64,000 bases of DNA from Sinotaia quadrata (Eukaryota; Mollusca; Gastropoda; Architaenioglossa; Viviparidae). The stretch is taken from the NCBI GenBank assembly GCA_028829895.1, contig CM054180.1:105665635-105729634 (forward strand), read 5' to 3'. Shown one piece after another: positions 4,561-64,000 of this stretch. Below the pieces are notes generated by a model. That model saw only the letters and a list, made by a program, of their open reading frames with translations, did not search any database and was not told where the DNA came from. The translations under genes were made by a program, and so were the position numbers. How positions within the stretch are numbered: the first letter of the stretch is position 1; the number at the start of each line of letters is the position of its first letter.

Positions 4561-4645
4561 TAGACGTAAATAATACCCGTCATATAATCTTAAAACTAAA
4601 GTAGTTTGTGTGCATTAACACATAATTGATCAAATCGAATCACAG

Positions 4646-5064
4646 GTTATGTTGATATTTTCGTTTCACATTACGTCAGCACTGCCAGAGCAGACTCTTG
4701 AAGGAAGGTGGAACTGTTCTTTGCCGATCTGGGATGATGTTAAACAACACCTGTCTTGTAACCTGATTGAGGAATGCATAAATGGCGAGGATGAACAAAA
4801 CTGTCCTCTGCTGACCGGCACCTGTGAGCCTGGTTATTTCAAGGCCGGAGGAAGCTGTTTCATGTTCATTCCGACCAATCAAAAGATGTCGTGGTCAACC
4901 GCTGAAGACATTTGCCATCAGAGAGGAAGCAGACTGCCGTCGCTTAGCGCGTGGCAAAAATATACAGAAGTCTTTAATGTATTATCCACACACTTACCTA
5001 TGAGTTTTCAAAACACTGGGGTCTTCATGGCAATCAGAGCTATTGCTTCACGGAAAGGAACAAT
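4646..5064 (+). CDS. A1 receptor, exon 1 visible: LDLa and first half of C-type-lectin-like domain
   Basis: A1 model: join 4646-5064, 5586-6123, 9604-11670; from the ATG at 4649 it gives 1,006 codons in phase. This exon follows an acceptor (ends in cacag at 4645) and ends at donor aat|gtaatg, phase 2. It encodes an LDLa module (RWNCSL to EDEQNC, about residues 20-51) and the start of a C-type-lectin-like domain (GSCF, then CHQRG and RLPSL). The homologous B1 exon continues upstream into a CUB-like module; here an acceptor and an upstream in-frame stop at 4616 replace it. Either unseen upstream exons exist left of the window, or translation starts at 4649, where a short hydrophobic MLIFSFHITSA could act as a weak signal peptide. 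The N terminus is therefore unresolved. Nearly identical to the A2 exon at 44123-44541. Confidence 0.8.
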
Positions 5065-5585: not shown

Positions 5586-6123
5586 GTATCGATGGATGAC
5601 TGAGTGGGCTGACGAAACTGTGGCTTATACTGTTTCATACGAATTATCAAATGTGTTGCTGAAAGAAGCGTCGTTTGTATCATCTACGAAAAGCAAAATG
5701 CATGTTATTAAAGTTATGAAAGAAGAAAATTTGAACCTTCTCTGTGAGAGAAAAATACATTCGGAAAATGCACTGACTGCTAATGTCAGTACTTTAATTG
5801 ACTTTGTCATTCAGAAAAGCAATATAACTTTAAATACATACCAAGAGACAAAACACAAATACGTTCAGTGTCCAGCCGGTCACGTACAGCAGACGTTTCT
5901 AGCGTGTGACGTCAAGAGTGCTTGTTGGGGGACTGAGCATGCTGGGTGCACAAATGTTGTCGCGTCACTTCCGCCATCTTTTTCTTGTTCCAACAACAGA
6001 GAGGTAGTGCAGTACACATTCATTTGTGACTTTCGCTCTGACTGCAGCGATGAAAGCGATGAAGATTTCTGCATTTTTCCTCAATGCTGGGAACAAATGA
6101 AACACGACTGTGGTAACTTACAG
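5586..6123 (+). CDS. A1 receptor, exon 2: end of C-type-lectin-like domain and LDLa modules
   Basis: Acceptor after tttctgtcag and donor cag|gtaacg; 538 bp, phase 2 in and phase 0 out. It completes the lectin-like domain (YRWMTEWADE, then the closing NLLCE cysteine). No EPN, QPD or WND sugar-binding motif is visible, so protein binding is more likely than carbohydrate binding. Then follow a serine- and threonine-rich linker and an LDLa-like cysteine module (CPAGH to SDESDEDFC). The last cysteine pair (CGNLQ) continues into exon 3, where it pairs with CFTSHERCDG to form another LDLa. An open frame runs on past the donor to 6318 but has no counterpart in the paralogues. The first 40 bp match A2 almost exactly, after which similarity drops. 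Confidence 0.8.
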
Positions 6124-7499
6124 GTAACGATAGCATCGAAAATTAATCTATTATTGTGTGGCAGAGTAAATGTGCCTCTCCTTATTTTAAAATTTAATTG
6201 TTATATAAATTGTCAAATTGTCAGAGTAACTTGGGCACTCCTTAAGATGGTATGTATGAAAGTGTCAGAGTTTGAAGTAAACACCCAAGTTGATTATGCT
6301 ATAAAATTGCTGATGTAATGCAAACTATCACAACTGGGTGAGTAGTTTTTATTATCCAATGGTTATGATTTGCGAGAACGAGACCAGCCAATGGGCTGAG
6401 ATAAAAAAAAGCTTACCTGCTGTAGAAGATTTTATTCTCTATTCACTTGAATGTTAGTGGCAAAGAAGAAATCTTGAATGACAGCCATTACCTTGATGGT
6501 GAGATAACTGGCTGGTTGAGAGAGCATGGACTTAGAAATATTTCGTGCATTTCCCTATTGATATTTTATACCCGCGTGGAGATGTACCATGTGAATTGAC
6601 TAGGCTGCTCACTTGTAGTTTTCTGGACACTTGACATGTTTTGATATGCTGTATTTTTATGTTTATCTAACAGCCTCAAAGTATTTTGACTTCTTTTCTC
6701 TGACTGCTTCTGCTTGGTGCATCCACCTTATTTTGCACTCCATAGTTCATGCATGTGTTATTATGTAAGATTTTTGTCTCTTCGTTGTTTCTTTTGGTGT
6801 AATCTGCTCTTGCCAGAAACTGACATCCACACGATATATGTTCAGTTGTTTTTTTTGCTTTGCAGCCTGCATTTTATATAATTTGAGATTTTCAAGATGT
6901 GTGTGTGAGTTCGTGTTTTGTGTTTGGTCTTGGCACTGTAATGAGTGCCACTGCTTCTGTTTCAAATCTACCTCTTTCAAACACATGTATGTTGATTCTT
7001 TTGTTGATGCTTTATAAGCTTGTCATACATACTGGCTGTGAAGAGATTTTTGGCTCCAAGTATTTCTATTGTCTGTTTCGTTGTTTTCTTCCATGTTTCT
7101 TGGTCAGATTGCGTGGAATGGTATACTTATCTCATCATTACTGTTTCTCTCAGTGGTTTATCTTTGTTGTTATTTCAGACGTGGTCCGTCAGGCATTTTA
7201 CTCCTCCTTCAATGCCATCTGACTCCCATATTCCGTGATACATACAATTTGTCTACATTTGCTCTTTGTGTGTTGGACTTCATGTACTTTGACTATTTTA
7301 TATTTTCTTTCTGCCATGATCATTCATTTCACTAGTTGTCCATTCTATGATGCTTACAGTGTAATTATTTACATATATTACGCATACATTGGATATATAG
7401 CTTTAATAGGAGGACTTGTCTAACCCGTTTCCCATATTCTCTCTCAACTTTGGACTTCACTCTGCATATTATCTTGACGTTTCAGTATTCCCAGGTATT

Positions 7500-8078
7500 G
7501 ATATCCATTTTCCATAACTCCCTTTATTTTCTCTAGCAACAGACCGGTGACTGTTCTGTCAATAAGTCCCTTTATTTTCTCTAGCAACAGACCTGTGACT
7601 GTTCTGTCAATAAGTCCCTTTATTTTCTCTAGCAACAGACCTTTGACTGTTCTGTCAATAAGTCCCTTTATTTTCCTCTAGTAACAGACGTGTGACTGTT
7701 CTGTCAATAAGTCCCTTTATTTTCTCTAGCAACAGACCTGTGACTGTTCTGTCAATAAGTCCCTATGTTTCCTCTTGCAACGGACCTATGATTGTCCTGT
7801 CAATATGTCCCTTTGTATTCTCTAGCAACAGACCTATGATTGTCGTGTCAATATGTCCCTTTGTTGTCTCTAGAAACAGACCTGTGATTATTCTGTCAAT
7901 ATGTCCGTTAGTTTTCTCTAGTAAGAGACCTTCGATTGTCTTGTCAATAAGTCTATTTTCTCAAACAACAGATCTGTGACAGTTCTATCAATAACTCCCT
8001 TTGTTTTCTCTAGTAACAGACCTGCGATTGTCCTGTCAATGAGTCCCTTTGTTTTCTCTAGCAACAGACCTGCACAAT
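7500..8078. repeat. 48-bp minisatellite in A1 intron 2
   Basis: About 12 diverged tandem copies of a 48-bp unit built on ctctagcaacagacctgtga and ctgtcaataagtccc. Since 48 is a multiple of 3, it leaves open frames on both strands (7444-7635, 7692-7979 and 7918-8244) that are by-products and not genes. It is absent from the matching A2 intron. Confidence 0.9.
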
Positions 8079-9459: not shown

Positions 9460-9620
9460 TGTTATAACAGTTGTTCTTTACATTGTGTCATCTAACCAGT
9501 GTTTCACAAGTCGTTATAACAGTTGTTTTTTACATTGTGTCATCTAACCAGTGTTTCACAAGTCGTTATAACAGTTGTTCTTTACATTGTGTCATCTAAC
9601 CAGTGTTTCACAAGTCACGA
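9460..9620 (+). repeat. 52-bp tandem repeat carrying the A1 exon-3 splice acceptor
   Basis: Three copies of a 52-bp unit contain the same acceptor context, atctaaccag|tgtttcacaag. The AG dinucleotides end at 9499, 9551 and 9603. Only the last keeps the reading frame, because 52 and 104 are not multiples of 3. A2 has four 50-bp copies at the same place. Confidence 0.85.
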
Positions 9621-11670
9621 GCGCTGTGATGGCCGAGAGCAGTGTGTGAATGGTGCAGATGAAAAGGACTGCCCACACAGTATATATATGAAAAACATAA
9701 ATCCATCTTTTAATGTAGCTTTTAGAACCAGGCCACCGCCTGCAACTATAAATGTGAACCGTTATACAGAATTGATTATGAATGAAAGTTTGAACTGTCC
9801 AGAAACGCATTTTTCCTGTCCGGAAACTGGTTACTGTATGCCAGTGTTTCTGATTTGTAACGGCGTTTTCGACTGTCCAGGTCACGAGGATGAGGTAGGT
9901 TGTGACAGCTACACGTGTCCTGGCTTCTATCGCTGTCGTGCTTCCAGAGTGTGCGTGCACTTAAGTCACGTGTGTGACGGTATATTGCAGTGTCCTCAAC
10001 GCGACGATGAACTGTTGTGTAACTTTACCTGTCCGGAAAATTGCACTTGTCATGGCCTGGCCTTTGTCTGCACTCAACCATTCCCAGCTCATGAATTTCC
10101 GGACCTTCGTTATGCGGACGTGGCCAACACAGGCATGACACTAGCAAACTTTGAAAACAATTATTTGTTAATATATCTGAATTTGCGGAATTGTGGATTA
10201 AAAGACCTCGATCATTCTGTACTGAGTAATTTGCGAATTCTTGATCTCAGCAGTAACAAACTAATCAGTATAACGTCTTCCCATTTGCAAGGATTTAAAC
10301 GCCTTCGGGACTTGTCACTAGCAGACAACCCACTAAAATATATTTTCCTAAGACAAAACTTTCATTCAACATTTTCCCCAGTTGTTCAGAATTTAAATAT
10401 GTCTCGTGTTTACATGGAGGAATTAGACACAAGTGTATTTAGCATCTTTCCAAACCTTCACACACTGACAATACTTGACAGCGGCATTGAGAAAATTGCA
10501 ATGGAGGGATTTCAATCACTGAAAAGACTTCGTCAGTTGGACGCACGTGGCAACCCGGTTGATGTTTTCCCCAGAAACATTTTTAACGGCCTTGATGAGC
10601 TGGAAATAGTTTTAGCTGATAATTTTAAATTATGCTGCGATGCTACGCTTCCGGCAGGTTTCCTTCTGAAAAACTGTCATGCGCCATCAGATGAGATTTC
10701 TTCCTGTGAAGACCTATTGGTCTCCGATGTTTACCGTATTTTTCTCGCTTCGTTTGGTCTCTTGACGTTGGTAGGAAACTTGAGTAGTTTTATATACCGG
10801 GTATTTATAAATAAAACAGATAGTCAGTATGGCTATGGGGTGTTTGTTACACATTTGTGTATGTCGGATTTTCTCATGGGCGTGTATCTGGCGGTGATTG
10901 GCGTAGCGGACTGGACATTTCGAGGGAATTACCTCTGGGAAGATTTAACCTGGCGAAAGAGTATCACTTGCAAAGTGGCTGGCGTCATATCGCTCTTGTC
11001 CAACGAGGTGTCGAGTTTCATCGTCTGCCTTATCACCCTCGACAGATTTCTCGTTCTTCGTTTTCCGTTAAGTCGACTTCATTTTCGGAAACAATCTGCA
11101 TGGATTGCTTGCACCATGGCTTGGTTGGCAGGCATGGTGTTAGCCTCTTTGCCACTGACTCCTTTTGTATCCGATGGACTATATTTCAGTCAAACTGCAA
11201 TTTGTATACCATTACCTATCACGAGAAAAATATTTAAAGGTCAAGGCTACTCATTTGGCATCATGGTGGTGTTGAACTTTGTTCTCGTTCTACTGGTCGG
11301 AGTGGGCCAGCTCTTCATCTATTGGTCAATACGCATGAACAGTATACTGAGTAGCCAAACGACAAAAAGGTCAAAGGACACGATTATTGCTCGTAGATTG
11401 ATTTCTGTCGTTATGTTTGATTTTTTCTGCTGGTTTCCGATTGGTCTGCTGGGACTTCTTGCATCAAGTGGATGGCCCATTCCCAGCACAGTTAATATTC
11501 CTATAGTGATCTTTGTACTGCCTCTGAACTCTATGTTGAACCCATTTCTGTACACAATGAACATCATTCATGAACGCTGGGTGAGTGCCAATGAACGACT
11601 TGAGGAGAAACGTATTCTACTGGAATTTAAAAGACAGGATCGAAGCACAATTTATGATTATTCCACTTAA
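9604..11670 (+). CDS. A1 receptor, exon 3: LDLa repeats, LRRs and 7TM core (GRL101/relaxin-receptor-like GPCR)
   Basis: Residues 319-1006 of the A1 model. In order: the rest of an LDLa (RCDG to DEKDC), two LDLa (CPETHFSC to DEVGC and CPGFYRC to DDELLC), an LRR N-cap (CPENCTC, about residue 463), six or seven LRRs to about 664, a hinge (FKLCCDATLPAGF and EISSCEDLL) like that of relaxin-type LGRs, then seven membrane segments at about 694-971. Class-A marks are present: GN in TM1, SDFLMG in TM2, D798-R799-F800 at the DRY position, W in TM4, FCWFP in TM6 and N964-P965-F-L-Y in TM7. The tail is short. It should act as a plasma-membrane receptor coupling to G protein; ligand unknown. The usable start of this exon is the acceptor at 9603, since no ATG precedes it in frame. 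Poly(A) signals follow at 11698 and 11869. Confidence 0.9.
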   Translation, partial: CFTSHERCDGREQCVNGADEKDCPHSIYMKNINPSFNVAFRTRPPPATINVNRYTELIMNESLNCPETHFSCPETGYCMPVFLICNGVFDCPGHEDEVGCDSYTCPGFYRCRASRVCVHLSHVCDGILQCPQRDDELLCNFTCPENCTCHGLAFVCTQPFPAHEFPDLRYADVANTGMTLANFENNYLLIYLNLRNCGLKDLDHSVLSNLRILDLSSNKLISITSSHLQGFKRLRDLSLADNPLKYIFLRQNFHSTFSPVVQNLNMSRVYMEELDTSVFSIFPNLHTLTILDSGIEKIAMEGFQSLKRLRQLDARGNPVDVFPRNIFNGLDELEIVLADNFKLCCDATLPAGFLLKNCHAPSDEISSCEDLLVSDVYRIFLASFGLLTLVGNLSSFIYRVFINKTDSQYGYGVFVTHLCMSDFLMGVYLAVIGVADWTFRGNYLWEDLTWRKSITCKVAGVISLLSNEVSSFIVCLITLDRFLVLRFPLSRLHFRKQSAWIACTMAWLAGMVLASLPLTPFVSDGLYFSQTAICIPLPITRKIFKGQGYSFGIMVVLNFVLVLLVGVGQLFIYWSIRMNSILSSQTTKRSKDTIIARRLISVVMFDFFCWFPIGLLGLLASSGWPIPSTVNIPIVIFVLPLNSMLNPFLYTMNIIHERWVSANERLEEKRILLEFKRQDRSTIYDYST

Positions 11671-15455: not shown

Positions 15456-15880
15456 ATGTTGTTTATTTAATTTTTAATTGATATGTTTACCTTGGGTTGT
15501 TAATTATTTTCTTTTACAAATCATTTTATTAATTTTATTCATTTTCTGTCATCCTTGATCATCTTTACAGTATGTAAATTCATCTTGTAATGTACGTGTT
15601 GTCTCTATTTTGTTATATTAAGCAAGAGATAACTTGCTTGGGGCTCATTGATTCACTGGGAGGGTCACTCGTGGTCATGTCCTAGATTTTAATTAATGTG
15701 ACTGACATTGTCAAATGACATTCTACTTACCATCCTTTTATAAAATCTGCTCAGTGTGCAGCATTTTGCAGTGTCACTCTTTACATCATCACTGCAGATC
15801 TAAATAATCATCCAATTTTTAAACTGTCTGCTTAATCACTGTAGACATCATTACATCATGTTTACATTCTAGCAAAGGTT
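15456..15880. other. AT-rich intergenic spacer
   Basis: Nothing recognised. The right-hand part (from about 15740) contains diverged copies of the 62-bp satellite that follows. Confidence 0.5.
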
Positions 15881-16280
15881 AATATTAATAGCTTTGTGCT
15901 GTGTCACACTAAACATCATTACTTCAAGTCTAAGTACTTAGCTAAGGCAATAGCTTTGTGCTGTGTCACACTAAACATCATTACTTCAAGTCTAAGTACT
16001 TAGCTAAGGCAATAGCTTTGTGCTGTGTCACACTAAACATCATTACTTCAAGTCTAAGTACTTAGCTGAGGCAATAGCTTTGTGCTGTGTCACACTAAAC
16101 ATCATTACTTCAAGTCTAAGTACTTAGCTAAGGCAATAGCTTTGTGCTGTGTCACACTAAACATCATTACTTCAAGTCTAAGTACTTAGCTAAGGCAATA
16201 GCTTTGTGCTGTGTCACACTAAACATCATTACTTCAAGTCTAAGTACTTAGCTAAGGCAATAGCTTTGTGCTGTCACTTT
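15880..16280. repeat. 62-bp satellite
   Basis: About six near-identical copies of a 62-bp unit containing gctttgtgctgtgtcacac and aagtctaagtacttagct. The high identity among inner copies points to recent homogenisation. It lies in the intergenic segment that has no match in the right half. Confidence 0.95.
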
Positions 16281-17974
16281 ATACAACATTTATTTCCAGT
16301 CAAAGTCCTCAGCTAAGGCTAATGGTTCTAGCTTTGTTACTATGACCTCCGGCAGTAGTTTTCTTTCGGACGAAATAATATGAATAGCAAGCAGTGTTCA
16401 TATAGTGCTGCTTTAGTGGTTGAGGTGTGTCTTTATGGCTCATATTTCAGTTCCTTGATCCATCTGGCTGAGGTGTTATGTATATTTGAATAGCTCCAAA
16501 ATGTTTTCCCAAAAGGTCTTGGTGTCCTCAATGTTTGGAAATAGTTATATTCTAGAATTTCCTTTGATTTCTTGGTATAGTCTTCCATTGTCAGTTTCGA
16601 ATATTTTCTTCTGTTGGAATTGCAGACCGCTTGCAGTGAATTTCTTCAGACTGTAACTGAGTCCTGTTGTTTTGCAGCTTCTATTGAGAACTTAATATTT
16701 CTGCAATTGAGATGGTATTTTTTTTTTTACTAATATAGTTTGTCGGTTTTCGTTATTATATATTGCTCTCTTTAGGCTTAATTCGTTCCTAGTGCATTCT
16801 ATTTTCTTTCTATTTTACTCGTTCATGGTGGTACTACATTATATTTGAATTATGAATTGCTGTTGTCAGAACTTTGTTGTTTTCAACCTATTTGATGGAG
16901 TTCTGCCTACATGTGATTTAATGTTGACCATGAAACATTTTATATCTCCAAACTGGCATTTCTGTTCTTCAGTTAAATAATTGGTTGTTTCTCTAGTGTG
17001 GACATCAGTTGGATTTGCAAGTTGTAAGGTTTTGGAAGTCTCATTGCTTTCTATTTCATCGCATAGGGTTGTGATATTAGTTTGTTGCTGTTCCATATTT
17101 TGTAGCTTCCAACTTTAATAAGCCTGTTTTGAATGATTGATCTCTTCTGGTTTATTAAGAGTGTTGTAACATAATCTTGTATTTTTTCTATTGTGATCAA
17201 TATGAATTGTTGCTATTTTTTCCTGATGTTGTATCCAGAGAATAGAATAAAATCAAGTTAATTCATGTTCTGTAATTTTTAATAATTCACTGAGATGTAT
17301 ACTGATGTTGTGGGATGCTGTTTTTTCTCCACTGAAGTAAATGTTAAAATGATGATTGTAAAACCCATGTGCATATTTGAACATTTCTGTTTGATGTAAT
17401 AATCATAACCCACATGTGAGTGGTGATATATTTCTATTTCTAATTGTAACAAGCATGTGCATGATTCAGACTATTTCTAGTTTCAATGTAAAAATATGAA
17501 GTGAGGTCAAAATTGTAATAGGACACCTATTGTCTGTTGTCACTACGTATGGATCAGTGAATCATAGGATCATCATTGATGGAAATAATTATTATTGTTT
17601 CAGAAAAGATTTAGAGTTCAGTTTCAGTTTGGTGTTTGTGTTCTTTAGCAAATGATCTAAGAACCTACTGTTGAGGTATGCTATTCATGTGTGATGAGTA
17701 ATGCAGACGAGTCAATTAGAACTTTCAATGATGGACTGTTAATGTATGAATTGCCAGAGAGACTTTTCCGATAACAGCTAATGGAAAGATAACTGGGCAT
17801 CTGACAAACTCTGAGATCAGAATTCATTCTATGATCCGTAAAACATTCAAAGACAGAATATGTGGTGATGACTTTCATATTTATATGTATTAATTAATGG
17901 ATTTACTATTTTTGTTAAATATTAAAATTTTATAATTTTGTTATCTTAATAACGGAAATTGACTAATTATTAGT

Positions 17975-22332: not shown

Positions 22333-24435
22333 TTAAAATTTCAAACTATTCAAACTACACTGTGAATCGGGATTTCCATGATTAATTTTGTGCAACTGCA
22401 ACATAATTCGTTTCCGTCTCTTTTCATCTCTTGTTCGTATCCCACGCTCACGGAGAACAGTTAGGCAGTAGAGAACAGTAGTCAAGGCTGAGCTAAGTGG
22501 TAAAACTATGATTGCCATGGCAATAGTAATCTCTCTAGTGACATACTTTCCAGTTAATGCGAGGAATCCTAGAATCACGTTTGGAAAGAAGCACATGGCG
22601 TTAAACAAAACAATAATGCTGACACGTTGTGCGATGATGACATCTTGTCGCACAGTTGTCATCTCTGTAGATGACAAGCCTTGTATGCAGATAGCACTAA
22701 ATATAAAGAGTAATCCAACAATGTCTGCCGAGATTAAGACACAGTTCAAGATTATCATAATACCATATGAATAAAACTTGCCTTCAAATGTCTGTCTAGT
22801 TATCGTCAGAGGACTGCATATGTCCGTCTGACTGTACAAGTTCCAGTGTGACGTCATAGGTAGAAAGGGTACAGAGGCTAGCACTATACTAATACACCAA
22901 GTTACTGCACATACAAAATGTGCCGAGCGGTTCTGGAAATGTTTGTGAGCGTGAGGAAAGTAAAACAGACAAACTTGGTCGATCACGAGGAGAGAAGTAA
23001 GAAATGTAGACATTTCTTTGGATACCAGAGCCAGGAATCCCGCCAGTTTACACATGGCGCTGTTTTTCCAGGCTACATCTTCCCAGAAATAGTTCTCCTC
23101 ATACGTCCAGTCTGCCGCGCCAATCATAACAAGGTACACACCCATCAGAAAGTCAGACACGCACAAATGAGTAACAAATGTGTTGCAAGCACGGACATTT
23201 GCTGCAAGACTGACTACTCGGTAGACAAGTGAGCCCATGTTTCCTAGTAAAGATAAAATTGCAAAGATTACAAGAAAACGTCTGTAGATAAAGGACGGTA
23301 AAAGTGTTCCACAAGAAGATATTTCGTCAGTTGGAGCTTGGCAGTCGGTAATCATTACACCTGCAGGCAGCATGGCAGGACAGCAGAGTTTATAGTCATC
23401 AGTGAAAATGGTCTGCAGTTTGGACAGGCCTTGAAAAAGGTCACGTGGATATTTTTTGATTGGACAACCACGAATGTCAACTTTACGTAACTTGTTCAGA
23501 AGTTTAAAACCCTCCCGTTCTACACTTTCAGTACCACTGGACTTCAAGATCAAAGTCTCCAAATTAGGAAACAAGATAAAGGAACTCCCGTTTAGTTCTG
23601 GCATATAAACTCTAGTCAGGTCAAGGCTGCGTATTTTCGGAAAATTAAATGCAACAGGATTGTCAATATAAAAAATAGTCCCTAATGGATTCCCGGCTAA
23701 TGATAATGTATTCAGATTTTGAAAGCCCAGCAGGTGTTTCGGAGGTACGAATCTAAGTTTATTATTGCTGAGATCTAGCGTTTGTAAATTGTCTAATATT
23801 ATGATGTCCATGTCCTTCAGTCCACAATGTTCTAGACTCAGATATACTAAAAATGTGTTGTTACTGAAGTCTCCTGGCGTCATGAGAGAATGTCCAGCAT
23901 TCACATAACGAAGTTCTGGAAAGTCACGAGCTGGGAATGTCCGGGAACACAAGAAAGCCAGTCCGTGACACGTGCAGGTGTCTGGACATTTAAGGTCACA
24001 TAGAAGTTCGTCATCGTGTCTTGGGCACTGGAAAATTCCATCACACACGTGACTGGTGTGCAGACACATCCTGGACGCCCGACAACGGTAGTAACCAGGA
24101 CAAGTGTAGCTGTCACACTCTGTTTCATCCTCATGACCTGGACAGTCGAACACCTTGTTACAGCGGACAAAAACAGGTAGACAGTATCCAGTATCCGGAC
24201 AGAGAAAGTGAGTTTCCGGACATCTAATGATTGAGCTGTGACTGTTTGTTTTTTCCTCCACATAAGGCTGCATCTTATAACGTCCTTTACCGTCCAGGTG
24301 TATCACGGCAGGTGGTGGCAGACTTGTGCTGGTTTCTTGTAATTGAAGTGCACCTCGTTTGTAGGTACACAGTTCTTCATCTGAACCATCTACACACTGC
24401 TCCACACCATCACAGAGTTGATTGATATATACACA
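22333..24435 (-). CDS. B1 receptor, exon 5: LDLa repeats, LRRs and 7TM core with lost GPCR switch motifs
   Basis: Last exon of the five-exon B1 gene; residues 625-1324. The acceptor is ctgtaag|tgtgta, phase 0, and it joins CGGRQ of exon 4 to CVYINQLCDG to form an LDLa. Two more LDLa, an LRR N-cap (CPDTCTC), about seven LRRs, a relaxin-type hinge (YKLCCPAMLPAG and EISSCGTLL) and seven membrane segments follow. The fold marks remain (GN in TM1, SDFLMG in TM2, TM3 and second-loop cysteines, W in TM4), but the switch residues do not: D1110-Q1111-V1112 replaces DRY/DRF, CFFP replaces CWFP, and T1276-T1277-V-L-Y replaces NPxxY. The frame is open over 2.1 kb, so it is not a simple pseudogene. It may be a decoy, a partner subunit or a G-protein-independent receptor. 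Convergent with A1. Confidence 0.9.
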   Translation of the reverse strand, partial: CVYINQLCDGVEQCVDGSDEELCTYKRGALQLQETSTSLPPPAVIHLDGKGRYKMQPYVEEKTNSHSSIIRCPETHFLCPDTGYCLPVFVRCNKVFDCPGHEDETECDSYTCPGYYRCRASRMCLHTSHVCDGIFQCPRHDDELLCDLKCPDTCTCHGLAFLCSRTFPARDFPELRYVNAGHSLMTPGDFSNNTFLVYLSLEHCGLKDMDIIILDNLQTLDLSNNKLRFVPPKHLLGFQNLNTLSLAGNPLGTIFYIDNPVAFNFPKIRSLDLTRVYMPELNGSSFILFPNLETLILKSSGTESVEREGFKLLNKLRKVDIRGCPIKKYPRDLFQGLSKLQTIFTDDYKLCCPAMLPAGVMITDCQAPTDEISSCGTLLPSFIYRRFLVIFAILSLLGNMGSLVYRVVSLAANVRACNTFVTHLCVSDFLMGVYLVMIGAADWTYEENYFWEDVAWKNSAMCKLAGFLALVSKEMSTFLTSLLVIDQVCLFYFPHAHKHFQNRSAHFVCAVTWCISIVLASVPFLPMTSHWNLYSQTDICSPLTITRQTFEGKFYSYGIMIILNCVLISADIVGLLFIFSAICIQGLSSTEMTTVRQDVIIAQRVSIIVLFNAMCFFPNVILGFLALTGKYVTREITIAMAIIVLPLSSALTTVLYCLTVLRERGIRTRDEKRRKRIMLQLHKINHGNPDSQCSLNSLKF

Positions 24436-25752: not shown

Positions 25753-26293
25753 CTGCCGGCCACCGCATCTTATTTGTGTCGTCTGGTTACATTTCATGAA
25801 GACACAAAAGTTTTCATCACTCGAGTCGCTGCAGTCGGGCCGATGATCACAGACCAATGTAAATGGCACACTTTCTCCTGAACTTTCACACGAGAAAGAT
25901 GGCGGAAGTGACGTCAATGGAGCATTACATATATTATTTCTTTGACCAAAGCAGAGGCTTTTCTCGTCACATATAAAGAACATCTGAGTCACGTGACCAG
26001 CTGGGCATTCAGGTAATGTTTTATATGATTGCAATTTTGGTTTGCCCAATGTAATGGCTGGTGGAGAAGAGCTATCAAATGCAAAACTATAATTAGTGCT
26101 TTGATGAAATTCAAACTCTTTCCGTTTCTCGCAGAGAAAGTTAGAAAACCTTTTGCCAGCAGAGATGTATATTGTAATTGTCGTTTTATCATTAATATCC
26201 AGGTTTCCATATGCCGATGTGAAAAAATTTGAATCGGAGATGTTCAGTAAATATGCAATAGAATTATCTGCCCATTGCCATGAAACAGCATAC
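25753..26293 (-). CDS. B1 receptor, exon 4: end of C-type-lectin-like domain and LDLa modules
   Basis: Residues 445-624. Minus-strand acceptor gtgcaag|gtatgc and donor cag|gtaaac; 541 bp, phase 2 in, phase 0 out, the same phases as A exon 2. Its continuous reading begins YAVSWQWADNSIAYL, passes NFLCEKRK (closing lectin cysteine) and reaches the LDLa-like module CPAGHVTQMFFIC to SDSSDENFC, then QIRCGGRQ. No EPN, QPD or WND motif. The true exon starts well upstream of the first ATG of its open frame (26049), because it is an internal exon. Identity to A exon 2 is low outside the cysteines, so A and B are old paralogues. Confidence 0.85.
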
Positions 26294-33968: not shown

Positions 33969-34662
33969 ATTATTGGCAATCCTGACTTAAAAGAGAATAC
34001 CCCTAGTGGTATTTTGCTTCCAATCATTCCTGATGTTAGTAATTCTGAGAAGTATTTCCATTTTGTCCACGTGCTTAGTATGGCCAAACTTGAGTTGTAC
34101 TTCGAACACAGGGTTATCCCTTCATCTCTACTTAACGATGTTCTTGTCATTTCATATCGAAAACAGCTGTCTTCAACAGTTATGTATCCTACGCCACACC
34201 TATCACTCGTGTAAGGACATGACAGTTCGTCTTCACCATTTAGGCACTGGGGAAACATGTCACAAGAAAAGTGATGATTTATGACAGTTTGACTGAGTGT
34301 GGAACAGTTCCACTTGCCGTCAGGCATTTCTTCTGGAAGTGTGGACTCGTGAAAAGAGAAGTTGAGTCTGAAACCAATGTGTAGTATTCCCTTTGTACTT
34401 TTAAAATGCACGAAGAATGCATTCCCTTGTCGTATAACAATAGGATTATAAGTAATAAGCCACGAGTTCCATATGTTGATATGACCATTGAAATGAGAGT
34501 TAAAGATGACTAGACGGTAAAAATCAGGATGCACGTCAAAACGTATAGTTCTGAAAACACTTATTATAACCGAGTTGTTTGGAGGTGTTTCTACTCTCAA
34601 CCATCTGTCAATATCGGCGTTGAATGTTGATTTCTTTTTTTCCCTAGAGAGCTCTATGAAAC
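33969..34662 (-). CDS. B1 receptor, exon 3: second CUB-like module, LDLa and first half of C-type-lectin-like domain
   Basis: Residues 213-444. Minus-strand acceptor atttccag|gtttca at 34662 and donor aat|gtaatt; 694 bp, phase 1 in, phase 2 out. The exon begins FIELSREKKK, and the first ATG of the open frame (34600) is inside it, not a start. It encodes a CUB-like module (RFDVHPDFYRLVIF to GFRLNFSFHE), an LDLa (GKWNCS to GEDELSC) and the first half of a lectin-like domain (CGVGY, SCFRYEM, LCSKYNSSLAIL). The donor is at the same codon as A exon 1. In A the exon starts at the CUB/LDLa junction instead, so A and B differ in gene structure here. Confidence 0.85.
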
Positions 34663-35842: not shown

Positions 35843-36362
35843 CGTGTTTGGGAGACATATAGGTGATCTCTAATTTAGGCTGCAATACTTTAAATGCTCC
35901 CGAGAAGTGTACAGAGATAAAAGAAGATTTCAGCACTGCTGGATTAAATTCAAATATCACGTGATTGGTAGCACTTGTCAAAAAAGGGCCAGTGTCTTGA
36001 AATTTCAAAAATGATGGGTAGTCTGGACTATCATATACAAAAATGTCAGGAATGGGTATCTCGGGATCCTGGTGGAGAATCATTACCATGTAGTTCGGTA
36101 AAATCACCTCGACTACAGTCAAACAGTTTTGATACAAAAGGTTTTCGCTTTCACTTATTTCTTCTTCTGAAATGCTCTTGGGTTTGTAATTAAAATTTAT
36201 AATTCCTTCTTCAGAACAAAACTGTAATTTCTCAAGACTTGAATCACATATGTCAGCGTATTTCTTTGAAATGGTGATATTGTTGTAAACCGGGCATTTC
36301 AGCAAGGAATATTGCGTGATGTTTTGCTCCATAAGGTATGGTAGTCTACTCTTGTCAGAAAC
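35843..36362 (-). CDS. B1 receptor, exon 2: first CUB-like module
   Basis: Residues 40-212. Minus-strand acceptor tcctag|gtttct at 36362 and donor cacg|gtaaga; 520 bp, phase 0 in, phase 1 out. It opens VSDKSRLPYLMEQNI, so the ATG of the open frame (36332) is internal. A cysteine-containing CUB-like beta module follows (CPVYNNITISKKY through NHVIFEFNPAV and KLEITY), extracellular, with several possible N-glycosylation sites. The match to CUB is by pattern and moderate. No equivalent exon was found for A1 or A2. The final codons (MSPKH) coincide with an antisense transposon motif. Confidence 0.8.
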
Positions 36363-36930: not shown

Positions 36931-38039
36931 AATGGTTTATTACTATGTTAAAATATTAGCAATAATGTTATGTAACAATAATCAAATATGGTTATGACAA
37001 ATGCAAAGAAAATATTATTTGACATTAATATTCCATGAAACAACATTCAGATACTTATTATAATTATTTGTGTACTAACACATAATTCAGCAGACAGACT
37101 AGATATAAATCAATCACAGGGCTATGGATTAATAGAGTATATGATAATTGTTTCTACATAACCTGTTCAATGTCGTAAATAGCAACAGTCCTTCCTGTGC
37201 TTTCATAACAATGACACAAGTTTATTGTTCACAATTGAATAGTAAATATTTCAGTGCTCTGCTAAGCATGTTGTAGAATGTTTCAACACTATAGATCCCT
37301 CGAAACTAATCTAGACACACATTCGCTGATTTAGCTTCTCAATTAGGCAATCACATTGACGAACTTCTAGCACTCCATTTGCTGGACATTTCCACAATGG
37401 AGTTGGATTAACTTGCCAATGCACACAAACAGGGCGCAGTGAATCAACACAACTGTTACACTTTAGAATGGAAACTTTTCTAATTTACTACAAGTGTACA
37501 AGTAAAAGTGGAAACAAAAAAAAAATGGCTTGCTCCTTTCTGACTGAGAATATTAGCGAGCAATGCTTAGTTCTAAGTTTAATCATCTCTATTTTTCATT
37601 CTCTCAATCAATCAGTTAAATCAACATTAAGATAATGAATGCCTTTTCATGACCAGACCTGATTTATGTCAAGATTAGAATATACAACTTTCTTCAACAG
37701 GTAGGTTTTGGTTTTTAACCATTGGATAGTTCATTATTTGTAAACCTTAAACTATTGGATAGCAAAAAGGACTCATTCACTCTTGACTGGTTTGGATTAC
37801 ATCCACACATTCTAGCATAATTTTTACCTGAGTTGTTATTTTAAATCTGTTACTTACAATATATCCCAATGCTCAGTACCAAAGGCCATGTCGTGTTGAC
37901 TTTTAACAAACTATATAATAATTATTTTAAAAATAAGGACAAGCATACTTAGTCCACCACATTTTCTTAATACATTTATATTTTTTGGTTTGTTATCATG
38001 ATAACATGATATCTATGCAACACTGATGATATTGTAAAC

Positions 38040-38655
38040 ATATCATATCAATCAGACCTTTATGGCACCATGTTTGTGGAAACACTCGATATCAACCGGT
38101 AGTTTTACAACATACATGATACTATAAAAACTCCATATCTATCAGTAGATTTACAGTATAACTGATTCTATAAATACTCGATATTTATCAGCAGTTTTAC
38201 AGCAGTCTGGAAAAACTAGATATCATGCAGTGGTTTATATCACTTGTGATACCGAAAACACTAGAAATCAATCAGTAGTTCTACAACACTCGTGATATAG
38301 GAAACACACAATATCAGTCAGTAGTTTTACCACATTCATTATATTGGAAACACACGATATCAGTCAGTAGTTTTACCACATTCATTATATTGGAAACACA
38401 CAATATCAGTCAGTAGTTTTATCGCATTCATCATACTGAAAACTCTCGGTATTAATAATTATTATACAGTACTCATGATAATGGAAACACTCGATATCAA
38501 TCGGTAGTTTTATAGTAGTCATGGTGAAGGAAACACTTGACATCAATCAGTAGTTTGACAGCAATCGTGATACTAGAAACACTCATACCAATCATGAGTT
38601 TTACAAGACTCATGATATTGGAAACACTCGGTATCATTCAGTATTTTGCAAGAAG
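38040..38655. repeat. 46-50-bp satellite, direct block
   Basis: About 12-13 diverged copies of a unit with ggaaacactcgatatcaatc and agtagttttac. Two adjacent copies near 38305-38400 are almost identical at 46 bp. Confidence 0.9.
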
Positions 38656-39189
38656 AATGAGTCAGTCAGGAACATCATAAGACACCCCATTCCGTACCCC
38701 TCCCTTCCCATTCCATCGCTCCTTACACAAATGTTTCTCTCTGAGAAGTCATAAACATGCAGGATCCGTTTATCTTCTGTCATGGGACTTCATGCATGGT
38801 GTGTCACCATACTCAATACTTGAGTGCTAGAAAACACTGAATGTCATGTTAACTGTATAGGTGCTTAAGTCGGGTATTTATATTTTAGAACTCATGTACT
38901 GAGTATGGCGAGTCTAACACTCCATTTAGTACACGTGCACTTAATGGCAATACATTACAGACACTGATCCCCAACCACATCCTAACACACACCACACATT
39001 GCGCAAAGGCATATACACGTGTATGTATGTGGAAAACCTGACAAGCAATACCACATATCGAGACGTATTTTCCGAACCTGAAGGCGTGATTGTCTGCCCT
39101 TAGTGGAATGACAATGTTGACACGTTTTCTGTATACAAGAGTGCATTCTTATCAAGAAATTGAAATCAATATTAGAGTAATGTGAGCGT

Positions 39190-39365
39190 CCGTGGGTTGA
39201 TGTTCTTTTATCATGAGTGCTGTAAAACTACCGATTCATATCGAGAGTTTCCATTATCATGAGTGCTGTATAACTACTGATTGATTTCAATAGTTTCCAG
39301 TATCATGAGTACTGCATAACTAATGAATAACATCGAATGTTTCCAGAATCATGAGTGTTGTAAAA
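39190..39365. repeat. Same satellite in inverted orientation
   Basis: Three to four copies, reverse-complemented relative to 38040-38655 (catgagtgctgtaaaacta, then ggtttcc-type ends such as gagagtttccattat). Together the two blocks can form a long imperfect hairpin in the B1 intron-1 transcript. Confidence 0.8.
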
Positions 39366-44060: not shown

Positions 44061-44122
44061 GATAGACGTAAATAATAATAGTTTGTGTGCATTAACATAA
44101 ACATGATCAAATCGAATCACAG

Positions 44123-44541
44123 GTTATGTTGATATTTTCGTTTCACATTATGTCAGCACTGCCAGAGCAGACTCTTGAAGGAAGGTGGAACTGTTCTTTG
44201 CCGATCTGGGATGATGTTAAACAACACCTGTCTTGTAACCTGATTGAGGAATGCATAAATGGAGAGGATGAACAAAACTGTCCTCTGCTGACCGGCACCT
44301 GTGAGCCTGGTTATTTCAAGGCCGGAGGAAGCTGTTTCATGTTCATTCCGACCAATCAAAAGATGTCGTGGTCAACCGCTGAAGACATTTGCCATCAGAG
44401 AGGAAGCAGACTGCCGTCGCTTAGCGCGTGGCAAAAATATACAGAAGTCTTTAATGTATTATCCACACACTTACCTATGAGTTTTCAAAACACTGGGGTC
44501 TTCATGGCAATCAGAGCTATTGCTTCACGGAAAGGAACAAT
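44123..44541 (+). CDS. A2 receptor, exon 1 visible: LDLa and first half of C-type-lectin-like domain
   Basis: A2 model: join 44123-44541, 45077-45614, 50413-52482; 1,007 codons from the ATG at 44126. It has the same acceptor and donor as A1 and differs from the A1 exon at about two positions in 419 bp (one changes Thr to Met at residue 9, one is silent). Because only about 4 kb separates it from the B1 promoter and no upstream coding exon is visible there, A2 either starts here or has lost its CUB region. Confidence 0.8.
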
Positions 44542-45076: not shown

Positions 45077-45614
45077 GTATCGATGGATGACTGAGTGGGC
45101 TGACGAAACTGTGGCTTATAGTGTTTCCTATGAATTGATAAATGTGTTCATTAAGGAAGCATTGTTTGTGACATCTATGAAAAGCAAAATACATATTATT
45201 ACAGTTATGAAAGAAGAAAATGTGAACCTTCTTTGTGAAAGAAAAATGCATTCAGAAAATACACTGACTGCTAATGTTAGTACTTTAATTGACTTTGTCA
45301 TTCAGAAAAGCAATAGAACTTTAAATACATACCAAGAGACAAAACACAAATACGTTCAGTGTCCAGCCGGTCATGTACAGAAGACGTTTCTAGCGTGTGA
45401 CGCCAAGAGTGCTTGCTGGGGAACAGAACATTCTGGGTGCACAACTGCTCTCATGTCACTTCCGCCATCTTTTCCTTGTTCCAACAACAGAGAGACAGTG
45501 CAGTACACATTCATTTGTGACTTTCGCTCTGACTGCAGCGATGAAAGTGATGAAGATTTCTGCATTTTTCGTCAATGTTTGGAAGAAATGAAACGCGAGT
45601 GTGGTAGTTTACAG
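45077..45614 (+). CDS. A2 receptor, exon 2: end of C-type-lectin-like domain and LDLa modules
   Basis: Same length (538 bp), phases and cysteines as A1 exon 2. From about 45120 the two sequences become clearly different, with clustered replacements just after VAY (SVSYELINVFIKEALFV here), in the part of the lectin-like domain between WADE and NLLCE. The LDLa part (CPAGH to SDESDEDFC) is better conserved. Confidence 0.8.
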
Positions 45615-50412: not shown

Positions 50413-50430
50413 TGTTTCACAAGCAACGAA
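50220..50430 (+). repeat. 50-bp tandem repeat carrying the A2 exon-3 splice acceptor
   Basis: Four copies of a 50-bp unit, each with taaccag|tgtttcacaag. AG ends lie at 50262, 50312, 50362 and 50412, exactly 50 bp apart. Only the last keeps the exon-3 frame; 50 and 100 are not multiples of 3, while 150 is. The copy at 50262 is therefore also in phase in length, although its insert would have to be free of stops. Confidence 0.85.
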
Positions 50431-52482
50431 CGCTGTGATGGCCGAGAGCAGTGTGTGAATGGTGCAGATGAAAAGGACTGCCCACAAAGTATAAATATGA
50501 GATACATATATCCAGCTTTCGACGTAATGTTTAGAACCAGGCCACCGCCTGCAATTATAAATGTGAACAGTTATAATAAAGAACTAATTATGAAAGAAAG
50601 TTTAGACTGTCCAGAAACGCACTTTTACTGTCCGGAAACTGGTTACTGTATGCCAGTGTTTCTGATTTGTAACGGCGTTTTTGACTGTCCAGGTCACGAG
50701 GATGAAGTAGGTTGTGACAGCTACACGTGTCCTGGCTTCTACCGCTGTCGTGCTTCCAGAGTGTGCGTGCACTTAAGTCACGTGTGTGACGGTATATTGC
50801 ACTGTCCTCAACGCGACGATGAACTGTTGTGCAACTTTATCTGTCCCGAAAACTGCACTTGTCATGGTCTGGCCTTTGTCTGCACTCAATCATTCCCAGC
50901 TGATGAATTTCCTGACCTTCGTTATGCAGACGTGGCCAACACAGGCATGACATTAGCAGACTTTAAAAACAATTATTTCTTAATATATCTGAATTTGCGA
51001 AATTGTGGATTAAAAGATCTCGATCATTCTGTACTGAATAATTTGCGAATTCTTGATCTCAGCAGTAACAAACTAATCAGTATAACATCTTCCCATTTGC
51101 AAGGATTTAAACGTCTTCAGGACTTGTCATTAGCAGACAACCCACTAAAGTACATTTTCCCAAGACAAAACTTTCATTCAACATCTTTTCCAGGTGTTCA
51201 CAGTTTAAATATGTCTCGTGTTTACATGCAGGAACTAGACACAAGTGTATTTAGCATCTTTCCTAACCTTCACACACTGACAATGATTGACAGCGGCATT
51301 GAGAAAATTGCAGTGGAGGGATTTCAATCACTGAAAAGTCTTCGTCAGTTGGACGTCCGTGGTAACCCAGTTGATATTTTCCCCGGAAATATTTTTAATG
51401 GCCTTGCGGAGCTGGAAACAGTTTTAGCTGATAATTTTAAATTATGCTGTGATGCCACACTCCCGGCAGGCTTCCTTCTGAAAAACTGTCATGCGCCATC
51501 AGATGAGATTTCTTCCTGTGAAGACCTATTGGTCTCCGATGTTTACCGGGTTTTTCTTGCTTCGTTTGGTCTCTTGACGTTGGTAGGAAACTTGAGTAGT
51601 TTTATATACCGAGTATTTATAAATAAAACAGATAGTCAATATGGCTACAGGGTGTTTGTTACACATTTGTGCGTGTCGGATTTTCTCATGGGCGTGTATC
51701 TGGCGATGATTGGCGTAGCGGACTGGACATTTCGAGGGAAGTACCTCTGGGAAGACTTAACCTGGCGTAAGAGTACAACTTGCAAACTGGCTGGCGTCAT
51801 ATCGCTCTTGTCCAACGAGGTGTCGAGTTTCATCGTCTGCCTTATCACCCTCGACAGATTTCTCGTTCTTCGTTTTCCGTTAAGTCGAATTCATTTCCGG
51901 AAACAATCTGCACAGATTGCTTGCATCATGGCTTGGTTGACAGGCATTGTGTTGTCCTCTTTGCCACTGACTCCTTTTGTATCCGATGGACTATATTTCA
52001 GTCAAACTGCAATTTGTATACCATTACCTATCACGAGAAAAATATTTAAAGGTCAAGGCTACTCATTTGGCATCATGGTGGTGTTGAACTTTGCTCTCGT
52101 CCTGCTGGTCGGCGTTGGCCAGCTCTTCATCTATTGGTCAATACGCATGAACAGTATACTGAGTAGCCAAACGACAAAAAGGTCAAAGGACACGATAATT
52201 GCTCGTAGATTGATTTCAGTCGTTTTGTTTGATTTTTTCTGCTGGTTTCCGATTGGTCTGCTGGGACTTCTTGCATCAAGTGGATGGCCCATTCCCAGCA
52301 CAGTTAATATTCCTATAGTGATCTTTGTACTGCCTCTGAACTCTATGTTGAACCCATTTCTGTACACAATGAACATCATTCAAGAACGATGGGTGCGTGC
52401 CAGTGAACGACTTGAGGAGAAACGTATTCTACTGGAATTTAAAAGACAGGATCGAAGTACAATTTATGATTATTCCACATAA
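50413..52482 (+). CDS. A2 receptor, exon 3: LDLa repeats, LRRs and 7TM core
   Basis: Residues 319-1007, one residue longer than A1. It has the same domain order: LDLa remainder, two LDLa, LRR N-cap (CPENCTC), six or seven LRRs, hinge (FKLCCDATLPAGF) and 7TM. The switch motifs are intact: DRF at residue 799, FCWFP in TM6 and NPFLY starting at 965. Most differences from A1 lie in the ectodomain (for example IYPAFDVMF versus INPSFNVAF in the linker), while the membrane core is almost the same. This suggests the same coupling with a possibly changed ligand site. Poly(A) signals at 52681-52690. Confidence 0.9.
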   Translation, partial: CFTSNERCDGREQCVNGADEKDCPQSINMRYIYPAFDVMFRTRPPPAIINVNSYNKELIMKESLDCPETHFYCPETGYCMPVFLICNGVFDCPGHEDEVGCDSYTCPGFYRCRASRVCVHLSHVCDGILHCPQRDDELLCNFICPENCTCHGLAFVCTQSFPADEFPDLRYADVANTGMTLADFKNNYFLIYLNLRNCGLKDLDHSVLNNLRILDLSSNKLISITSSHLQGFKRLQDLSLADNPLKYIFPRQNFHSTSFPGVHSLNMSRVYMQELDTSVFSIFPNLHTLTMIDSGIEKIAVEGFQSLKSLRQLDVRGNPVDIFPGNIFNGLAELETVLADNFKLCCDATLPAGFLLKNCHAPSDEISSCEDLLVSDVYRVFLASFGLLTLVGNLSSFIYRVFINKTDSQYGYRVFVTHLCVSDFLMGVYLAMIGVADWTFRGKYLWEDLTWRKSTTCKLAGVISLLSNEVSSFIVCLITLDRFLVLRFPLSRIHFRKQSAQIACIMAWLTGIVLSSLPLTPFVSDGLYFSQTAICIPLPITRKIFKGQGYSFGIMVVLNFALVLLVGVGQLFIYWSIRMNSILSSQTTKRSKDTIIARRLISVVLFDFFCWFPIGLLGLLASSGWPIPSTVNIPIVIFVLPLNSMLNPFLYTMNIIQERWVRASERLEEKRILLEFKRQDRSTIYDYST

Positions 52483-62609: not shown

Positions 62610-64000
62610 TTAAAATTTCATATTATTTACACTACATTGTGAATTGGAATTTCCATGATTAATTTTGAACAACTGCAGAGTAATTAGTTTCCGTCTCTTT
62701 TCATATCTTGTTCGTATCCTACGCTCACGGAGAACAGTTAGGCAGTAGAGAATAGTAGTCAAGGCTGAGCTAAGTGGTAAAACTATGGTTGCCATGGCAA
62801 TAGTAATCTCTCTAGTGACATAATTTCCAGTTAACGCGAGAAATCCTAGAATCACGATTGGAAAGCAAGACATGGCGTTAAACAAAACAATAATGCTGAC
62901 ACGTTGTGCGATGATGACATCTTGTCGCACAGTGGTCATCTCTGTAAATGACAAGTCTTGTACGCAGATAGCACTGAATATAAAGAGTAATCCAACGATG
63001 TCTGCCGAGATTAAGACACAGTTCAAGATTATCATAATACCATATGAATAAAACTTGCCTTCAAATGTCTGTCTAGTTATCGTCAGAGGACTACATACGT
63101 CCGTCTGACTGTACAAGTTCCAGTGTGACGTCATAGGTAGAAAGGGTACAGAGGCTAGCGCCATACTTACACACCAAGTAACTGCACATACAAAGTGTAC
63201 CGAGCGGTTCTGGAAATGTTTGTGAGCGTGAGGAAAGTAAAACAGACAAACTTGGTCGATCATGAGGAGACAAGTAAGAAAAGTAGACATTTCTTTGGAT
63301 ACCAGAGCCAGGAATCCCGCAAGTTTACACATGGCGCTGTTTTTCCAGGTCACATCTTCCCAGAAATAGTTCTCCCCATACGTCCAGTCTGCCGCGCCAA
63401 TCAGAACAAGGTACACACCCATCAGAAAGTCAGACATGCACAAATGAGTAACAAATGTGTTGTAAGCACGGACATTTGTTGTAAGACTGACTACTCGGTA
63501 GACAAGTGAACTCATGTTTCCTAGTAAAGACAAAATTGCAAAGATTACAAGAAAACGTCTGTACATAAAGGAGGGCAAAAGTGTTCCACAAGAATATATT
63601 TCGTCAGTTGGAGCTTGGCAGTCGGTAATCATTACACCTACAGGCAACATGGCAGGACAGCAGAGCTTATAGTCATCAGTGAAAATTGTCTGCAGTTTGG
63701 TCAGGCCTTGAAACAGGTCACGTGGATACTCTGTGATTGGACAACCACGAATGTCTACTTTACGTAACTTGTTCAGAAGTTTCAAACTCTCCCGTTCTAC
63801 ACTGTCAATACCACTGGACTTCAAGATCAAAGTCTCCAAATTAGGAAATAAGATAAAGGAACTCCCGTTTAGTTCTGGCATATAAACTCCAGACAAGTCA
63901 AGATTGCGTATTTTCGGAAAATTAAATGCAACAAGATTGTCAAAATTAAAAAACGTTTTTATTGGATTCCAGGATAATAATAATGTATTCAGATTTTGTA
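62610..64000 (-). CDS. B2 receptor, last exon (partial): LRRs and 7TM core with lost GPCR switch motifs
   Basis: The minus-strand frame is open from the stop at 62610 to the window edge; upstream of the first ATG (63896) it continues as NLNTLLLSWNPIKTFF into the LRRs, so the exon is cut by the window. LRRs, hinge (YKLCCPAMLPVG) and 7TM are as in B1. The altered switch motifs are shared: DQV (codon at 63257), TTILY in TM7 (first Thr codon at 62759), and SCFP in TM6, where B1 has CFFP and A has CWFP. The 5' exons are outside the window. Convergent with A2. The 3' flank carries a retrotransposon relic not present in B1. Confidence 0.85.
   Translation of the reverse strand, partial: QNLNTLLLSWNPIKTFFNFDNLVAFNFPKIRNLDLSGVYMPELNGSSFILFPNLETLILKSSGIDSVERESLKLLNKLRKVDIRGCPITEYPRDLFQGLTKLQTIFTDDYKLCCPAMLPVGVMITDCQAPTDEIYSCGTLLPSFMYRRFLVIFAILSLLGNMSSLVYRVVSLTTNVRAYNTFVTHLCMSDFLMGVYLVLIGAADWTYGENYFWEDVTWKNSAMCKLAGFLALVSKEMSTFLTCLLMIDQVCLFYFPHAHKHFQNRSVHFVCAVTWCVSMALASVPFLPMTSHWNLYSQTDVCSPLTITRQTFEGKFYSYGIMIILNCVLISADIVGLLFIFSAICVQDLSFTEMTTVRQDVIIAQRVSIIVLFNAMSCFPIVILGFLALTGNYVTREITIAMATIVLPLSSALTTILYCLTVLRERRIRTRYEKRRKLITLQLFKINHGNSNSQCSVNNMKF

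Follow-up and report, generated by a model that had tools for sequence, protein, structure and literature searches.

Background

Decoy and atypical G-protein-coupled receptors (GPCRs) are best known among the vertebrate chemokine and complement receptors. The complement receptor C5aR2 (C5L2) has DLC in place of DRY and NPLMF in place of NPxxY, does not couple productively to G proteins and takes up ligand, as described in passages of PMC2697321. Among the molluscan receptors, the closest described system is that of GRL101 and the type C2 leucine-rich repeat GPCRs (Lymnaea GRL101), and according to parts of PMC12297450 a cluster of lectin-type GRL101-like genes sits in a resistance region of Biomphalaria sudanica. 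Here we analysed a stretch of 64,000 nucleotides of Sinotaia quadrata DNA (contig CM054180.1, positions 105,665,635 to 105,729,634, forward strand; the window in the following), which contains four last exons of GRL101-like receptors, named A1 (plus strand), B1 (minus strand), A2 (plus strand) and B2 (minus strand). Like GRL101, A and B have LDLa repeats, leucine-rich repeats (LRRs) and an RXFP-like seven-transmembrane (7TM) domain. B1, and B2 where it is visible, encode GRL101-like receptors that have lost the activation path; judging from their sequences, they probably bind ligand and would give no G-protein signal, acting as a decoy or as a silent partner of A.

Loss of activation motifs in both B copies

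A first-pass annotation of this DNA had reported DQV, CFFP (B1) or SCFP (B2) and TTxLY in the B genes, as opposed to DRF, CWFP and NPFLY in A1 and A2, and the sequence bears this out. The B features concerned are the following.

22333..24435, minus strand: last exon of B1, in which the final part of an LDLa repeat is followed by more LDLa repeats, LRRs, the 7TM domain and the stop (open frame, acceptor and phase, Pfam LDLa and LRR, RXFP1 match at E 2e-39)
22972..22980, minus strand: DQV of B1, replacing DRY/DRF (3.49-3.51; sequence and alignment)
22582..22593, minus strand: CFFP of B1, replacing CWFP (6.47-6.50; sequence and alignment)
22468..22482, minus strand: TTVLY of B1, replacing NPFLY (7.49-7.53; sequence and alignment)
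62610..63998, minus strand: last exon of B2, clipped by the window end, with LRRs, 7TM domain carrying DQV, SCFP and TTILY, and stop (93.5% DNA identity to B1, gapless over 1389 bases)

The motifs start at 22980 (DQV), 22593 (CFFP) and 22482 (TTVLY) in B1 and at 63257 (DQV), 62870 (SCFP) and 62759 (TTILY) in B2; their counterparts DRF, CWFP and NPFLY start at 11041, 11428 and 11539 in A1 and at 51853, 52240 and 52351 in A2. The fold-defining residues N1.50, D2.50, C3.25 and W4.50 are present in all four genes, as had been proposed, and P6.50 and Y7.53 are retained in B despite the loss of CWxP and NPxxY.

Conservation was judged in 231 homologues, pooled from three lists that each gave the best 120 hits, out of 493, 264 and 810. 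R3.50 was kept in 230 of the 231 (the exception, P0220, has Leu), W6.48 in 227, and N7.49 and P7.50 in every one. No homologue lacked two or more of these four residues; both B copies have lost all four. No orthologue with DQV and TTxLY was found among the 231 listed homologues. In four Pomacea proteins (P0015, P0033, P0052, P0102) W6.48 is replaced by Lys or Arg.

At the codon level, R3.50Q separates AGA in A from CAA in B, two bases apart; W6.48F in B1 (TGG in A, TTC in B1) likewise takes two bases and W6.48C in B2 (TGC) one. B1 and B2 further share the changes Q5.58 to Leu, D6.44 to Asn and N7.45 to Ser, in columns whose constancy among the homologues is 98-100%. The lost positions belong to the class A activation path, according to a portion of PMC6954041. 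Nine activation-path positions in columns at least 95% constant are lost in B1, and eight of these carry the same new residue in B2, so that the loss most simply predates the duplication. The claim that the losses are older than the duplication is thus supported by these eight positions; at 6.48, where B1 has Phe and B2 has Cys, the loss is common to both copies but the residue is not. Both B copies also have Asp at 5.54, where 95% of the homologues have Ile; possibly, this residue is a replacement polar contact after the loss of D6.44.

An AlphaFold2 model of B1 showed seven long helices and an LRR domain with a mean predicted local distance difference test score (pLDDT) of 77.1 (79.0 for A1), and the nearest solved folds to the B1 model were TSHR, FSHR and LGR4. 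The alignment comprised 69 rows, the structure models drawing on 65 of the 231 homologues. Since most of these are intact receptors, the B1 model indicates compatibility with the fold and is not proof of it. In the model, the membrane anchor of B1 looks to be kept as a seven-helix bundle.

Family membership of A and B

At E ≤ 1e-20, 493 proteins were matched, and the best 120 of them, which were listed, are 40-49% identical, several being named GRL101-like. The best relatives are GRL101-like proteins of gastropods. Organisms named among the listed matches are Batillaria, Pomacea, Littorina, Nucella and Babylonia, which by themselves would make a caenogastropod the probable source of the DNA, and no relatives were found in viral contigs. 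Pfam detected LRRs in all four last exons (LRR_8 in B1 and B2) and LDLa in the three complete ones; in B1, LDLa repeats (PF00057) occur in the last exon and in one upstream exon. The 7tm_1 profile was matched by A1 (76.9 bits) and A2 (75.3 bits), whereas B1 and B2 missed its threshold.

Among solved sequences, RXFP1 is nearest to A1 as well as to B1, where the match spans residues 296-660. The best sequence matches of the 7TM domain were RXFP1, LHR, a C. elegans LGR, LGR4, TSHR and FSHR, so descent from the chemokine or complement receptor families is not indicated. In a whole-exon tree with 60 homologues, sampled from the 190 in which both domains were covered, A and B are sisters with an ultrafast bootstrap of 100. 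B1 thus has what characterizes GRL101 and the type C LGRs: LDLa repeats, LRRs beside a 7TM domain, a 7TM domain of the RXFP/glycoprotein-hormone-receptor branch, and common descent.

Change in the 7TM domain and in the ectodomain

A constancy of at least 95% across the homologues was found for 22 columns in the LDLa part, 29 in the other ectodomain and 68 in the 7TM domain. B1 has changed 0 of 22, 2 of 29 and 16 of 68 of these, respectively. The corresponding counts for A1 were 0, 1 and 6; A2 also has 6 changes in the 68 7TM columns, and B2 has 18, with 2 of 17 in its visible ectodomain. The homologue median of changed constant 7TM columns is 1. Both the comparison of 7TM domain with ectodomain within B1 (p = 0.004) and that of B1 with A1 within the 7TM domain (p = 0.034) were significant.

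Mean identity and branch lengths gave the same picture. In the ectodomain, mean identity to the homologues (n = 197) was 0.468 for A1 and 0.472 for B1, and the stems on a fixed topology were 0.333 for A and 0.350 for B. In the 7TM domain, identity (n = 231) was 0.540 for A1 and 0.431 for B1, with stems of 0.350 for A and 0.985 for B, 2.8 times that of A (0.985 with the root outside the B stem, 0.911 with the root inside it). In relative-rate tests of the 7TM domain, B was faster against 231 of 231 outgroups, 219 of them at p < 0.05, the outgroups not being independent; for the ectodomain, it was faster against 127 of 195, only 4 of them at p < 0.05. The equal ectodomain rates of A and B together with the accelerated 7TM domain of B fit a maintained binding-only receptor: as in a decoy, degraded DRY and NPxxY motifs stand beside a binding part that, by its residues, appears kept.

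We also compared the losses with a list of 43 activation-path positions, made up of the first-round pairs and G-protein contacts given in part of PMC6954041 and not of its final 35 residues. This list holds 19 of the 68 constant 7TM columns and takes in 9 of the 16 losses of B1 (P = 0.006), 9 of the 18 of B2 (P = 0.019) and 1 of the 6 of A1, an enrichment with some circularity, as the choice of B went back to some of these motifs.

Gene conversion between A and B was considered as a source of the ectodomain likeness and rejected. In every domain, A1 and B1 are nearly saturated with silent differences (pS 0.69 in LDLa, 0.77 in LRR and 0.77 in 7TM), so recent sequence exchange does not explain the likeness.

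Constraint on B and alternative explanations

The frames described as open in the first-pass annotation are indeed so: the last-exon frame of B1 runs from 24492 to 22333 on the minus strand, and the visible stretch of B2 has no internal stop. B1 as a whole comprises four exons with GT-AG sites in consistent phase and 1285 residues without a stop. Thus the broken reading frame of a pseudogene was not found, as B1 reads through all four exons and no indel separates it from B2. The two copies differ by 90 substitutions and 0 indels over 1389 bases, where 8.8 indels would be expected from five non-coding blocks (P = 1.5e-4) or 9.8 when a sixth is added (P = 5e-5). The five blocks are those that blastn aligned, except that block 4192-6601, a mixture of exon and intron, was left out; with its non-coding part added back, non-coding divergence was 9.4% instead of 11.5%, and the following result held (p = 1.5e-5). 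Non-synonymous changes between B1 and B2 (58.5 in 1073.7 sites) were rarer than non-coding ones, be it 347 in 3029 (p = 2e-9) or, with the sixth block, 412 in 4387, and in the 7TM domain, too, they lagged behind the non-coding rate. A history of gene conversion between the two B copies in this exon was unsupported, synonymous changes (31.5 in 312) matching the non-coding 347 in 3029 (p = 0.57); the codon maximum-likelihood dS of B1/B2 was lower, 0.0875.

Several results weigh against the reading of B as a kept receptor without signal. For the B1/B2 ratio of non-synonymous to synonymous rates (dN/dS), which had been proposed as a check, NG86 gave 0.52 (bootstrap 0.35-0.79). The codon maximum-likelihood estimate was 0.68, with omega = 1 not rejected (p = 0.10), and 0.79 for the 7TM domain alone (p = 0.45). 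Across estimates, the overall ratio ranged from 0.52 to 0.69; for A1/A2, codon maximum likelihood gave 0.36 (p = 2e-7). In a neutral simulation the compared B stretch stayed stop-free in 6% of runs. One homologue, P0086, has 16 changed constant 7TM columns with DRF, W6.48 and NPFLY intact. After removal of the motifs already named in the first-pass annotation, the activation-path enrichment was not significant (P = 0.10 and 0.057). D3.49 and Y7.53 are retained in B. RXFP1 has Lys at 3.50, which makes a single loss of R3.50 no proof of silence, and the herpesviral receptor ORF74 signals with DTW, according to part of PMC3405870. Because omega = 1 was not rejected, the case for recent constraint on B is made by the absence of indels and by a non-synonymous rate below that of non-coding DNA.

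The dN/dS values would also suit a dying pseudogene, with a 7TM domain freed of constraint, a frame open by luck, as in roughly one of 16 simulated runs, and an ectodomain that has not yet decayed. In addition, the eroded columns are still changing: B1 and B2 differ in 5 of these 18, whereas in the remaining variable columns of the 7TM domain they differ in 25 of 233 (p = 0.048). We nevertheless regard decay as unlikely. No indel occurred where about nine were expected, non-synonymous changes stay under the rate of the neighbouring non-coding DNA, 7TM domain included, and all 22 constant LDLa columns are kept in B1, the four exons of which are intact. Moreover, the near saturation of silent sites between A1 and B1 implies that a B frame of 700 codons was kept for very long. 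B is thus probably a kept gene with relaxed constraint on its 7TM domain rather than a dying one.

A further alternative is that B was rewired and signals via other residues to another output, such as arrestin, another effector, or a G protein through an altered core. RXFP1 with K3.50 was solved in complex with Gs (title of 7tmw), and ORF74 signals with its DTW in the account of PMC3405870, as far as that source was available; B has kept D2.50, D3.49 and Y7.53 and has the new charged D5.54, and its non-synonymous 7TM changes stay below the non-coding rate. On the other hand, 3.50, 5.58, 6.44, 6.48, 7.45, 7.49 and 7.50 were lost together, and 6.48 differs between the copies, although a rewired core under selection would be expected to be fixed between them. 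Rewiring therefore seems to us somewhat less probable still than decay.

Proposed role of B

In the preferred reading, in which B binds ligand and does not signal, the LDLa/LRR ectodomain of B, if expressed and placed in the membrane, would bind the same kind of ligand as the intact neighbour A. For GRL101, an insulin-like ligand has been proposed (PMC8286064). The path relaying activation from 6.48 to 3.50 would be gone with R3.50, Q5.58, D6.44, W6.48, N7.45, N7.49 and P7.50. B could then capture or take up ligand as a decoy, without a G-protein signal, or it may be a silent partner in a complex with A. The idea of a decoy or co-receptor pseudo-GPCR, raised in the first-pass annotation, gains from the kept open frames and the acceleration confined to the 7TM domain, but is weakened by omega = 1 not being rejected. 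The same annotation treated Arg3.50, Trp6.48 and NPxxY as controls of activation. This has to be qualified for R3.50, which is dispensable, as RXFP1 reads E-K-Y; its loss alone means little, given the Lys of RXFP1 and the signalling of ORF74 with DTW. It is the joint loss of path residues, not that of the Arg alone, that carries the weight.

More tentatively, and in our view somewhat less likely than not to be the full account, A and B may be a receptor and its anti-receptor, maintained as a pair within an immune-type cluster and duplicated as one unit, with A signalling and B tuning or hiding the ligand of A. This would be an LGR analogue of C5aR/C5aR2 that evolved independently in molluscs.

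Gene structure and layout of the locus

Self-comparison of the window showed two copies of the unit of A and B, spaced about 40 kb apart. A and B are convergent inside each unit, and B1 and A2 stand head to head. The remaining exons are listed below.

25753..26293, minus strand: B1 exon with linker and LDLa (tblastn with long homologues; donor CAG|gtaaac, phase 0 to the last exon; LDLa E 1.6e-6)
33969..34662, minus strand: B1 exon with weak CUB-like part, LDLa-like repeat and C-type-lectin-like part (tblastn to P0033, P0041 and P0225; splice phases; weak Pfam LDLa)
35843..36362, minus strand: most 5' B1 exon found (open frame; acceptor/donor phase match)
4619..5064, plus strand: A1 exon, LDLa-like and C-type-lectin-like, with putative 5' boundary (open frame, tblastn, Pfam)
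5586..6123, plus strand: A1 exon with linker and LDLa (tblastn, Pfam, splice sites)
9604..11670, plus strand: last exon of A1 with LDLa, LRR and 7TM domain carrying DRF, CWFP and NPFLY (open frame, 7tm_1 76.9 bits)
44096..44541, plus strand: A2 exon, LDLa-like and C-type-lectin-like, with putative 5' boundary (open frame, tblastn, Pfam)
45077..45614, plus strand: A2 exon with linker and LDLa (tblastn, Pfam, splice sites)
50413..52482, plus strand: last exon of A2 with LDLa, LRR and 7TM domain carrying DRF, CWFP and NPFLY (open frame, 7tm_1 75.3 bits)

The last exon of B1 begins after the acceptor ...ctgtaag|TGT with base 24435. A first exon of B1 with a start codon was not located, 36362-35843 being the most 5' exon found. 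B2 is clipped by the window end, with 462 codons visible and the LDLa part outside the view. By tblastn, the upstream B1 exons align with long homologues, some of which carry PF00431 or PF00059, which we take to be CUB and Lectin_C; among Pfam domains, LDLa alone is well matched in these exons. The lectin-like assignment draws on the tblastn match to P0225, which is listed with PF00059, and on a weak C-type-lectin-like Pfam hit in A only (E 0.0097). Intron phases at the lectin/linker and linker/last-exon joints are equal in A1 and A2. Pfam scans of six other frames of the window gave no hit above the cut-off.

Two such near copies within one window could in principle be an artefact, if A2/B2 were a second haplotype of A1/B1 that the assembly had failed to collapse, or if local errors had produced the motif changes. 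Divergence is indeed mosaic and falls to 1.4-1.5% in exon 1 and intron 1 of A. Pooled non-coding divergence of 9.4-11.5% together with single-copy stretches is, however, large for haplotypes, and the B motif changes are common to both copies. We consider an artefact very improbable.

The low divergence concerns the lectin-type exon and the next intron (4619-5585 in A1, 44096-45076 in A2), which differ by 1.4-1.5%, compared with 9.5% in the following exon; this stretch is likely a gene-conversion tract. No positive selection was seen in exon 2 of A (A1/A2 dN/dS 0.40). About 2.8 kb located 5' of the A1 exons (1348-4191) have no counterpart at A2, with the junction near 43706, a difference that is an insertion or deletion since the duplication. 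The acceptor of the A last exon occurs in three tandem copies, at 9500, 9552 and 9604 in A1 (period 52) and at 50313, 50363 and 50413 in A2 (period 50); the two upstream acceptors lead to a stop after 15 codons in A1, and those of A2 read on in other frames. Direct and inverted repeats lie between the heads of B1 and A2 (38018-39366). Long minisatellite or microsatellite arrays were present at 278-735, 7511-8072, 15760-16319, 42507-42994, 52750-53306 and 59727-60122; some of the repeat arrays read as open frames, for example with SIYL repeats.

Comparison with known systems

To our knowledge, B would be the first LGR with the whole activation path lost while under selection. A natural LGR without the path from 6.48 to 3.50 but with its ectodomain would, if true, be an independent case of a decoy or atypical receptor; its intact sister gene A adjoins it, which makes a direct comparison possible, and B would give the orphan GRL101 receptors a natural binding-only control. 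In the open-access literature, as covered by titles and the starts of abstracts and with most subscription journals outside its scope, no report was found of an LGR that lacks both DRY and NPxxY.

Compared with other gastropod GRL101-like proteins, B has lost the activation path, which the 231 sampled homologues keep save for single losses. SudRes2 of Biomphalaria sudanica, a different snail lineage from that studied here, likewise consists of tandemly arranged receptors that combine LRR, LDLa and C-type-lectin-like regions, the last of these being putative in A and B; its genes were gained or lost between haplotypes, and here A and B were duplicated together (PMC12297450, in part). With similar GRL101-like clusters located in a schistosome-resistance region of Biomphalaria, as parts of the same report describe, silent members would bear on effects of copy number and of presence or absence. 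In a word search of its main text, 'DRY' and 'pseudogene' had no occurrence.

Among the LGRs, those with non-classical output are LGR4-6, for which complexes with RSPO and ZNRF3 or RNF43 are found among titles of the Protein Data Bank (PDB). According to part of PMC3873998, the arginine of DRY is present in LGR4 and LGR5, and NPxxY throughout LGR1-6; B has neither. RXFP1, like B, lacks R3.50 (Lys) but, unlike B, keeps CWxP and NPxLY and couples to Gs (title of 7tmw).

The decoy group in the chemokine receptor table with changes at 3.50, 5.58 and 7.53 is presumably DARC. With its changes at 3.50 and 5.58, listed in an excerpt of PMC3405870, this group resembles B. C5L2 parallels B in that its DRY and NPxxY are degraded and it has a signalling receptor as paralogue (PMC2697321, in part). 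C5aR2 and the atypical chemokine receptors belong to an unrelated family; the binding part of B is a large ectodomain of LDLa, LRR and lectin-like regions, and its loss, unlike theirs, also reaches 6.44, 7.45, 7.49 and P7.50. B is a GRL101-like receptor by descent and decoy-like by the parts it has retained, with a putative function.

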